Shown here one piece after another: positions 58,173 to 60,812 of a DNA stretch of 64,000 nucleotides (positions within the stretch are counted from its first letter, which is position 1; each line of letters starts with the position of its first letter). A program made the position numbers and the translations under genes. The DNA comes from Desmonostoc muscorum FACHB-395 (GTDB lineage: Bacteria; Cyanobacteriota; Cyanobacteriia; Cyanobacteriales; Nostocaceae): the NCBI RefSeq assembly GCF_014698035.1, contig NZ_JACJSF010000012.1, positions 1 to 64,000 of the forward strand, given 5' to 3'. Under the pieces are notes generated by a model that saw nothing but the letters and a program-made list of their open reading frames with translations, ran no database searches and was not told where the DNA came from.

Positions 58173-58370
58173 TTATTCTGCTTCTGCCAGTATCCATCTG
58201 GAGTAAGCATCTTCGAGAAATCTGCTTTGACGACGAGTTCCTTTATGCTTGCTCACTCTGACTTTGAGGGTGGTTATGTACACTCCATCCATTACCTCAT
58301 GCCCATAACCGAAAACTTGACCAATTTGCCCTGTTCTTTGATGCAAAGCATAATCCCCGATATGCAACAT
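58173..58370 (-). CDS. Small conserved-looking hypothetical protein, 65 aa
   Basis: Starts at ATG 58370 with AGGAAG at good spacing. Sequence is balanced and protein-like: HIGDYALHQRTGQIGQVFGYG, VYITTLKVRVSKHKGTRR, FLEDAYSRWILAEAE. The first part suggests a small beta-barrel (SH3-like or KOW-type turn G-D-Y...G-Q-I-G-Q-V-x-G-Y-G), then a short basic strand and an amphipathic helix; nucleic-acid or protein binding is imaginable. Not recognised. It lies just downstream of the GT gene on the same strand (104 bases), so might share the riboswitch-led transcript. Confidence 0.65.
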   Translation of the reverse strand: MLHIGDYALHQRTGQIGQVFGYGHEVMDGVYITTLKVRVSKHKGTRRQSRFLEDAYSRWILAEAE

Positions 58371-58474: not shown

Positions 58475-59746
58475 TTAAGCTGCAATTCGGAGTTGGGTAT
58501 TGGGTGCAGTTTGAGCCAACAAACGAGTGTAAAGCTGAGTCAGTCGGAATCCGACACTGTACCAACTAAAGGCGATTTCTGTCCGTTGTCGAGCCGCTTC
58601 ACCTAATTGGTCTCGCCAAGCTGGGTTGACAAGAATGCGGTCTATAGCAGCAGCAAAAGCTACTTCATCTTTAGGAGGCACAAGTAATCCTGTTACTTCT
58701 GGTACAACAGTAAACTGTAGCCCGCCAACATCACTAGCTACGACTGGTGTCTGACTAGCCATTGCCTCAATAGCAACTAAACCAAAAGGTTCATAGTGGC
58801 TAGGGACTACGCAGACATCAGCGGCGGCGTAGTAGAAGGGGAGGGCGGTTTCATCTAGGCGACCAGCAAAGGTTGTACAATTTTCTAATCCGAGTTCAGT
58901 CACAATGCTAGCAATGCGATCGCGTTCTATTCCATCACTCTGACCGGGACGGCTACCACCACCAATTACTAACTGAAAGTTAGCTTCACCTCTTAAACTA
59001 GACTTGGCAACGGCTCTTACCAAGGTTTCAATTCCTTTACGGCGGTCAAAGCGACCAACATAGAGAACCATTTTGGCATCTGGGGCAATTCCCAACTTTT
59101 CCCGCGCCGCAGTTCGCTGAATTCCCCCAAATTTGTCAGTATCAGTGCCACAGGGAATCATTTCAATGTTCCCTTTGCTAGAAACGAGTACCCGCATGTG
59201 TTTCTGTTCTTGTGGACTGGTTGCAACTACACAGTCTATAGTTTCCAAGCAGGCTTTTTCTACAGCTAATCGCTGGGCTGCAATTACGGGAACATCACCA
59301 ATACTTCTGTATTTAACGGCTCCTAAAGAGTGGTAAGTGTGTACCTGAATCAGGGGTTGGTGCTTTTTCAATTCCATACCCACCCAAGATGATAACCAGT
59401 AGTTGGTATGAATGAGGGAGTAATGGAACCCTTGGCGCTGCTGGAATTGCTGAAATTCTTCTATGAATTCAGGTAGATGCTGGAACAAGTTATCTCGCCC
59501 GATAAACTCAGCTGGGCCAGCTTTTAACCGAATAGTACGACAGTTTGGGCTATGTTGAGCGATCGCAGCTTGTTCAGGATTACTACGACGAGTGAACATA
59601 TCCACTTGCCAACCTTGCTGGGCTAAGGCATAACCTACTTGACGCACATAAACATTTTGACCTCCAGCCTCTTCTTGACCAATTTCAACCGCCGGGTCGC
59701 CATCAATAGAAATTAGGGCAATGCGATGTTTCTTATTCTGGAACAT
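58475..59746 (-). CDS. Sucrose-phosphate-synthase-like family 4 glycosyltransferase
   Basis: 423 residues, GT-B fold. The N-terminus ALISIDGDPAVEIGQEEAGGQNVYVRQVG is the sucrose synthase / sucrose-phosphate synthase type of opening with a GGQ acceptor loop; CRTIRLKAGP, SLIHTNYWLSSWVG and VHTYHSLGAVK follow. The donor domain has YVGRFDRRKGIETLV, the phosphate-binding motif and the E-x7-E motif EPFGLVAIE. Cyanobacterial SPS proteins of this size make sucrose-6-phosphate, a compatible solute; related transferases make glucosylglycerate or glycolipids, so the product is a guess. The ATG (59746) is preceded by TTGAGGTG. The leader of about 300 bases holds what I identify as a cyclic-di-AMP riboswitch. 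Confidence 0.82.
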   Translation of the reverse strand: MFQNKKHRIALISIDGDPAVEIGQEEAGGQNVYVRQVGYALAQQGWQVDMFTRRSNPEQAAIAQHSPNCRTIRLKAGPAEFIGRDNLFQHLPEFIEEFQQFQQRQGFHYSLIHTNYWLSSWVGMELKKHQPLIQVHTYHSLGAVKYRSIGDVPVIAAQRLAVEKACLETIDCVVATSPQEQKHMRVLVSSKGNIEMIPCGTDTDKFGGIQRTAAREKLGIAPDAKMVLYVGRFDRRKGIETLVRAVAKSSLRGEANFQLVIGGGSRPGQSDGIERDRIASIVTELGLENCTTFAGRLDETALPFYYAAADVCVVPSHYEPFGLVAIEAMASQTPVVASDVGGLQFTVVPEVTGLLVPPKDEVAFAAAIDRILVNPAWRDQLGEAARQRTEIAFSWYSVGFRLTQLYTRLLAQTAPNTQLRIAA

Positions 59747-59789
59747 AGCTGATTTTCACCTCAAGGCAAATAATCCTGCCTCAAACGCC

Positions 59790-59912
59790 AGAAATCAAGA
59801 TATTATTATCCTCTCTCAAGGCCGAGGGCAGGTACAACGAACCGCAAAGTTACCAGCCAAAGGACACTGACGAGAACAAGGCATTACTTGTTAAGAATGC
59901 TGCTCGTTCAGT
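59790..59912 (-). promoter_or_regulatory. Possible expression platform of the riboswitch
   Basis: Between the riboswitch core and the GT start: stem ACTGACGAG (59866-59874) with CTCGTTCAGT (59903-59912), and inside it two hairpins that exclude each other, GCATT/AATGC (59881-59885 with 59896-59900) and AACAAG/CTTGTT (59875-59880 with 59887-59892). The GACTGA part can also pair back into the riboswitch (TCAGTC on the sense strand, 59951-59956). Read from sequence; function inferred. Confidence 0.45.
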
Positions 59913-60085
59913 CTCTTCTCAATGCCGACGAAGTTAGCTGACGGGCTAGGACTGAGAGATGTCCTTCTTAAGAAAGTTATGAGTTATGAGTTTAGTAACT
60001 TTTAACTCCTCACTATTAACCATTAACTTTCTTCAAAATACGCCCCAGATTTGGTTCCTCCGCTCCGGTTTACCCTTTACAAATG
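59905..60085 (-). ncRNA. Cyclic-di-AMP riboswitch (ydaO/yuaA type)
   Basis: On the minus strand two conserved blocks appear in the right order. The 5' block CGGAGCGGAGGAACCAAA followed by TCTGGGGCGTATTTTGAAG (60031-60068) corresponds to the GGGGGACCCAA...GGGGUGAAUCC part of the ydaO consensus; the 3' block AGCCCGTCAGCTAACTTCG then TCGGC (59924-59947) corresponds to CCCGUCAGCUAACCUCGUAGGC. Between them a variable arm, enlarged by heptad repeats, closes with AAGAAAGTTA / TAACTTTCTT. The element precedes the SPS-like transferase by about 160 bases. ydaO RNAs bind cyclic-di-AMP and usually turn genes for osmolyte, potassium or wall functions off. Consensus recalled, not searched. Confidence 0.78.
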
Positions 60086-60367
60086 TTTGTTGGGAATTTA
60101 GTGGATTAGGCAGACTGATTTATTTTTCTTAAAGTTTTATAACCTTTAGTCATCAACTATGTCAAGAGTATGAACAAAAAAATGGTGATGCTAATCACTT
60201 CAAAGCGCGTTGTAACTAGCTTTGAAGAATCAGACTGTAGGGGAAAGTTGGAGTTGTTGAGAAGCTCTCAAGAAGAAACTTACTGATGTTGATTGCTACA
60301 TTTTCTTTAGTTTCTGAGAATGAAATAATCTTGAAAGTTTCAAAGAGTTAAATATACCAATGGCGTA
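60086..60367. other. Gene-free region upstream of the riboswitch
   Basis: About 280 bases, AT-rich; should contain the promoter for the riboswitch transcript. No gene or repeat seen. Confidence 0.5.
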
Positions 60368-60812
60368 CTATTTTGCTAAACCAAGTGTCCGACCAGGAAA
60401 ACCAGCAACGTCAAAATATCGAGTTGAGCCAACAGTTTGATACTTCAAGATCGTTTTTAATCCATTAGTACTTGGTTGGGATGTCAAAGTATTAGATTTA
60501 AAAGTAACTTTTTTGAATCCTCTGACTAAAGATTTAAGTAATTACCATCAAAGTGTTGGCTAGTTTTCCCCAAAACAGCATTATTTTCTAAAAAAGGAAC
60601 TGGGCTGTTACTGGCACTTTTGACAGGAAAGCCAACATTAATTGTATTGATCTGGTATCACCAAGATAATGTCCCGTTGCGATCGCAGAAGCATTAGTGG
60701 TAGTAAAAGTAGGAAACAACGAATGACTGTTGATAAAACTTACACCCTGTTGGCGAATTTCATAAAGATTAGGGGTTTCAATCAGCATTAACTTTACTAG
60801 GTCGCAATCCAT
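60368..60812 (-). pseudogene. Alkaline phosphatase / type I phosphodiesterase family pseudogene
   Basis: Starts at ATG 60812 and reads TPNLYEIRQQGVSFINSH, LFPTFTTTNASAIATGHYLGDT: the metal-binding opening of alkaline-phosphatase-superfamily phosphodiesterases (Thr nucleophile in TTTNAS). Near 60640 the reading must shift frame to continue as NVGFPVKSASNSPVPFLENNAV and QHFDGNYLNL; then a stop. Another frame carries a C-terminal-like piece, VTFKSNTLTSQPSTNGLKTI and GSTRYFDVAGFPGRTLGLAK, ending TAG at 60368. So only the first ~75 and perhaps last ~55 residues remain of a gene normally of several hundred codons; frameshift plus internal deletion. Confidence 0.8.

Follow-up and report, generated by a model that had tools for sequence, protein, structure and literature searches.

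A c-di-AMP riboswitch ahead of a dedicated sucrose-phosphate synthase gene of Desmonostoc muscorum: a probable translational switch, either ON or OFF

A sucrose-phosphate synthase (SPS)-like gene of Desmonostoc muscorum FACHB-395 is preceded by a complete riboswitch aptamer of the ydaO/yuaA class (Rfam family RF00379), which responds to cyclic di-AMP (c-di-AMP). This observation, made on a window consisting of the first 64,000 nucleotides of contig NZ_JACJSF010000012.1, is confirmed, and sequence comparison indicates that sensor and gene very probably form a real control switch. We consider it probable that this ydaO-class element stands in the leader of a dedicated SPS paralogue and acts as a translational switch by means of an anti-aptamer strand, either ON or OFF. 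The comparative case for the pair is unusually clean. Through RNA, the pair would tie a second messenger precisely to a key enzyme of sucrose synthesis, a connection that is conserved and apparently confined to one SPS paralogue. The sensing of osmotic stress in cyanobacteria and the induction of their compatible-solute genes are described as not well understood (PMC6753628).

The RF00379 model matched the minus strand at 59908-60122 with 67.1 bits (E = 2.2e-13), 29 bits over its gathering cut-off of 38 bits, and was covered end to end (positions 1-134 of 134). The alignment contained no non-standard model pair and showed both conserved cores in order, the 5' core GGAGCGGAGGAACCAAATCTGGGGCG at 60041-60066 and the 3' core GCCCGTCAGCTAACTTCG at 59929-59946, placed by the Rfam match together with the motifs. 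In the 64-kb window GCCCGTCAGCTAAC occurred a single time, both strands counted, and no Rfam family besides RF00379 reached its gathering level. The class had been proposed in an earlier note on this DNA from two conserved blocks on the minus strand, and the Rfam search bears it out, which excludes the refuting case named there of no match above threshold; the blocks lie in the order claimed, with GGAG..GGAGGAACCAAA..TGGGGCG within 60066-60041 and GCCCGTCAGCTAACTTCG at 59946-59929. The interval that the note had drawn around the element, 59905-60085, misses 37 nt at the 5' end of the aptamer, including the 5' strand of P1. A second aptamer in the spacer was also considered and rejected: when 59650-60250 was searched against Rfam at permissive settings, RF00379 was accompanied by a single weak match (21.3 of 56 bits, E = 0.88). 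In its variable part the aptamer carries an AT-rich insert (59963-60034, minus strand) made of a short repeat that is dispersed in the genome. This insert had 12 genome matches, itself included, and ACTCATAACTCATAAC, taken from it, was present in 7 exact genome copies including its own, versus 0 for the reversed control.

The gene behind the aptamer (58475-59746, minus strand) encodes a product of 423 aa. Among proteins of solved structure it is closest to Tll1590 from Thermosynechococcus (T. elongatus; TeSPS, 6kih; 457.8 bits), reported as an active and crystallised sucrose-phosphate synthase (PMC7264703). The two proteins share 54.1% identity (216 of 399 aligned residues), and all six TeSPS active-site residues tested, R105, H158, R178, R249, R253 and E331, are kept as R84, H139, R159, R232, R236 and E319 of the window protein. 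In TeSPS the substitutions H158A and E331A are reported to abolish activity and mutants of the four arginines to be less active (PMC7264703). Pfam recognised only domains of the glycosyltransferase group 1 or family 4 type, and the product resembles TeSPS and the Anabaena SPS-A and SPS-B in having a single glycosyltransferase domain. It fell short of the NCBIfam SPS model TIGR02472 (123.3 of 576 bits) and scored higher with the MshA model TIGR03449 (276.9 bits), itself below its own cut-off of 462.5 bits. Because the curated cut-offs for SPS and MshA were both missed, the name SPS rests on homology to TeSPS and on the conserved residues. On these grounds the SPS-like glycosyltransferase of the earlier note can be called a sucrose-phosphate synthase of minimal GT4 form, and it is predicted to convert UDP-glucose and fructose-6-phosphate to sucrose-6-phosphate.

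The association of aptamer and gene was then followed across genomes. A search of 53 genomes of the genus with the window protein (E up to 1e-60) returned 88 matches, 19 with at least 83% identity (one of them partial) and 69 with 54-70%. RF00379 lay on the same strand before 19 of the 19 close orthologues, with coordinate differences of 161-167, and within 3 kb of none of the 69 other SPS-like matches, 124 RF00379 matches having been checked. Genomes of the genus with the switched SPS carried 3 or 4 riboswitches versus 1 or 2 in those without it. The pairing of aptamer and SPS is far beyond chance, and the link that the earlier note had drawn from one locus holds for a whole set of orthologues and for one clade of switched paralogues. 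At the level of the order, RF00379 was found in 114 and an SPS match in 125 of 195 genomes. Their intersection gave at least 5 linked pairs in 4 genomes, that of the window included; this is a lower bound because it used 151 riboswitch rows and just 125 of the SPS rows. Among the 20 best-scoring SPS regions taken from the order, the 3' motif was present in 11 and absent in 9. Looking beyond the genus, we also examined 48 named loci, some from genomes that overlap with those of the genus search. As the window protein served as the query for these loci, they are biased towards the clade of the window SPS. Both motifs lay upstream of SPS in 36 of them, Rfam added L101, and nine were without the motif, four of these (L090, L091, L092 and L099) having been checked by Rfam as well.

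Shared synteny as a trivial cause of this linkage was rejected. The leader aligned to that of the window in 37 of the 48 named loci (blastn, E up to 1e-8), and the upstream flank aligned in only 6 of these 37, some loci holding little upstream DNA. An alignment of some kind was found downstream in 18 of the 37, mostly over 200-350 nt. Three loci had long downstream alignments and the 15 others only about 200-350 nt, perhaps a small ORF near 58173-58370.

The phylogeny of the enzyme was drawn from 66 SPS rows, chosen for their resemblance to the window protein. Regions L035, L041, L042, L045 and L052 were not entered, and L096, L101, L121 and L127 were left out for having more than 2 stops in translation. 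All 45 rows labelled as carrying the riboswitch fell in one clade of 48 (support 99/84), together with the unlabelled L044, L090 and L092. The label required 3 changes on the tree versus a mean of 18.1 after shuffling, and none of 500 shuffles was as low. Both other SPS-like genes of the window genome fell outside this clade. The window SPS differs from TeSPS in belonging to a riboswitch-carrying paralogue clade, in which Anabaena SPS-A or SPS-B may also lie. Two labels, those of L087 and L095 (Leptolyngbyaceae SM1_4_3 and FACHB-471), are doubtful, having been given on a partial motif with two mismatches. The aptamers of both loci score below the Rfam cut-off, with 19.2 and 17.2 of 38 bits. 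Their leaders (L087:3477-3641 and L095:4664-4827) are diverged, c-di-AMP-riboswitch-like elements before SPS, in which the core has changed to GGGUUUAA and GUCAACUAGC and the anti-aptamer strand has changed to match; they may be variants of altered ligand specificity, or decaying.

The aptamer ends 161 nt before the ATG at 59746, in agreement with the gap of about 160 bases given in the earlier note, and lies in a predicted 5' leader with a promoter-like site upstream. This putative promoter (60136-60165, minus strand) consists of TTGACA (60165-60160), an 18-nt spacer and TATAAA (60141-60136), and stops 13 nt short of the aptamer. A site in this position makes it less likely that the transcript begins below the aptamer, the second case that the earlier note had named as refuting. 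Of 45 leaders, 12 could not be placed; among the 33 that were scored, 12 had both hexamers exact, most of these being close relatives, and several distant leaders were without a good match. Between the aptamer and the ATG no terminator-like (intrinsic) site was found, and termination of that kind was set aside as a mode of action. Broken frames further upstream, at about 60360-60790 on the minus strand, look by eye like the remains of a phosphatase-type gene.

The spacer was compared in an alignment of 32 leaders running from the 3' core of the aptamer through the ATG. Mean column identity was 62%, 29 columns were invariant, and conservation extended up to the ribosome-binding site. Following P1, a hairpin H1 (AGAGACTGAACGAG / CTCGTCAGTGTCC, 59861-59916) had 87.8% of its cells paired, and 5 of its 12 pairs were changed on both sides. 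Next comes the candidate anti-aptamer strand TTGGCTG (59854-59860), the complement of CAGCTAA in the 3' core (59940-59934); here 97.8% of cells were paired and 2 of 7 pairs showed compensated double changes. This strand overlaps a second hairpin, H2 (GGCTGGTAAC / GTTGTACCTGCC, 59827-59858; 82.5% of cells paired, 2 of 9 doubles), which is exclusive with the anti-aptamer helix. A further possible helix, exclusive with H2, would join CCTGCCCTC (59832-59824) to GAGGCAGG (59782-59775), with 90.3% of cells paired across 59775-59832; written as RNA, CCUGCCCUC / GAGGCAGG, it had 3 of 8 pairs changed on both sides. A pairing of AGGCA with UGCCU is also possible in the spacer (78.9% of cells paired, 1 of 5 pairs doubly changed). 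Finally, a hairpin at 59757-59770 includes GAGGTG at 59762-59757, the presumed ribosome-binding site, with 76.3% of cells paired and 0 of 6 doubles. All of these elements lie on the minus strand, and slid controls paired 31-53% of cells.

Covariation support for these helices is modest. In the two shuffle controls, of 500 shuffles each, 3 and 25 reached the observed covariation score, 2 and 16 had as many cells with double changes as observed, 66 and 60 as many doubly changed pairs, and 294 and 322 as many further pair types. In the anti-aptamer helix, the compensated doubles, CAACUAG in the core against CUGGUUG, were restricted to L087 and L095, which are one lineage, and five other SPS leaders retain just 5 of its 7 pairs. 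RNAalifold recovered H1 and H2 in a non-redundant set of 18 leaders that precede other genes, most often that of an ABC transporter permease; all had been preselected for the ACTGA-like motif that is the 5' strand of H1. From this recurrence, other cyanobacterial c-di-AMP switches seem to share the platform.

Control of translation is the likeliest mode for the window leader according to this model of its helices. Transcription would start at the promoter-like site beside the aptamer, and binding of c-di-AMP would lock the GUCAGCUAAC core in the aptamer. The locked core would free the downstream strand UUGGCUG, which could otherwise pair with it; the freed strand could form H2, the choice among the overlapping helices nearer the ribosome-binding site would shift, and translation would change. 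In this way the potassium and osmotic second messenger c-di-AMP would set the amount of sucrose-6-phosphate made. A count along the mutually exclusive helices, taken as a chain, favours an ON switch with c-di-AMP, to which we grant an even chance or slightly better. The complete ON scheme is proposed tentatively, at clearly under an even chance: high c-di-AMP would keep the core off UUGGCUG, H2 would form, the ribosome site would be exposed and a dedicated stress SPS paralogue would be turned on, sucrose replacing ions, and the diverged L087 and L095 leaders could be a variant of altered ligand specificity.

In order to obtain the direction from folding energies, leaders were folded with the aptamer locked or with the anti-aptamer helix forced, and the accessibility of the ribosome site was read out. 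The rise in accessibility with the aptamer locked that the model expects appeared in just 16 of 32 SPS leaders. Among leaders of other genes it was predicted in 1 of 3, 7 of the 10 candidates having been dropped for want of an acceptable start codon. Such inconsistent changes led us to reject this approach as a guide to direction. In the lowest-energy folds of the window leader, the ribosome site was paired in both states.

The reverse direction, in which c-di-AMP turns SPS OFF, is the strongest alternative, and we rate it a little short of an even chance. Here the freed UUGGCUGGU and the AACUUU loop of H2 would base-pair to the ribosome-binding site and to the nucleotides preceding the start codon. 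That pairing does appear when the window leader is folded to lowest energy with its aptamer locked, but the pre-start bases that it uses, AUCAGCU, are by eye unconserved in most leaders. Of the 3 leaders that belong to other genes, 2 are predicted to have a less accessible site on locking, against the 16 of 32 SPS leaders in which locking does the opposite. Two relatives described in print are OFF switches, namely the kdp riboswitch (PMC6488665) and, at the level of translation, that of nlpC (PMC9960051); physiology argues the other way, c-di-AMP being reported to rise with salt in Anabaena (PMC5986932) when sucrose synthesis also rises (PMC4390843). In that report, 24 h of salt left more c-di-AMP in Anabaena and less in Fremyella, and sorbitol raised it in Synechocystis and Fremyella and not in Anabaena (PMC5986932). 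Because these responses to salt and sorbitol differ by species, physiology does not decide between ON and OFF.

Instead of a translational switch of either direction built from the spacer helices, the aptamer could regulate in a different way, for instance through mRNA stability, through Rho-dependent termination or through an antisense RNA. The lack of an intrinsic terminator in the spacer and the absence of a clear change at the ribosome site on folding would both fit, but the conservation of the spacer up to the ribosome-binding site and the overlap of the anti-aptamer strand with H2 speak for translation, and we regard such a route as unlikely. A decaying, functionless relic or a chance match, which the dispersed repeat in the variable part and the two relatives below the cut-off might suggest, was rejected on the complete linkage in the genus (19/19) and is very improbable given also the score 29 bits over the cut-off, the two intact cores and a leader that is kept where upstream flanks mostly are not.

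Returning to the probable translational switch, the window element resembles the RF00379 family in matching the whole model well above the cut-off, in the order of its cores and in its predicted position in the leader of an osmotic-stress gene; it differs in its long conserved spacer with an anti-aptamer strand and in its target, SPS. The kdp riboswitch of B. thuringiensis is reported to act by termination (PMC6488665), in contrast to the window leader, where no terminator was found. The nlpC riboswitch of C. glutamicum is closer in that it too is described as lacking a canonical terminator and translational control was concluded, but its target is a cell-wall peptidase and its reported direction OFF (PMC9960051). 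If the direction before SPS were ON, it would be a departure from these described members of the class. In cyanobacteria, c-di-AMP riboswitches had already been proposed ahead of osmoprotectant genes in 2013 (Nelson 2013, as cited in PMC5986932 and PMC4284465), and slr0753 of Synechocystis has one upstream that is reported as verified (PMC10117731), likewise cyanobacterial and differing from the window element in target gene and spacer. The earlier note had expected in this locus, should the transferase be SPS, a clear cyanobacterial target of c-di-AMP; SPS would not be the first, the osmoprotectant genes and slr0753 having come earlier. Among titles and the beginnings of abstracts we recognised no report of SPS under a c-di-AMP riboswitch, and Nelson 2013, Ehira 2014 and Mantovani 2022 may mention one. 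A riboswitch on one paralogue may explain why heterocyst formers hold several SPS genes, and it could offer a natural handle on sucrose production.

The genome as a whole has a single diadenylate cyclase domain (PF02457, 129 bits) and, elsewhere than at this locus, one strong match to the sucrose-6-phosphatase family (308.2 bits) plus three weak ones. There are two further SPS-like matches, one of them a domain within an open frame of 1282 aa with long extra parts on both sides (L134:172-4020, G000:C200). The two other RF00379 riboswitches of the genome lie 3.6 kb apart (L132:4362-10460, G000:C229). One precedes an ABC transporter with a permease, an NMT1-like binding protein and an ATPase, and the other precedes a universal stress protein together with a permease of the CitMHS/ArsB type, which may be of the slr0753 type. 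Such proximity recurs in the genus, with 51 genome-wise pairs of RF00379 matches within 6 kb among the 52 genomes that have matches, and at L004, L005 and L009 the same ABC transporter permease is preceded by tandem c-di-AMP riboswitch motifs at a distance of about 0.5 kb from each other.
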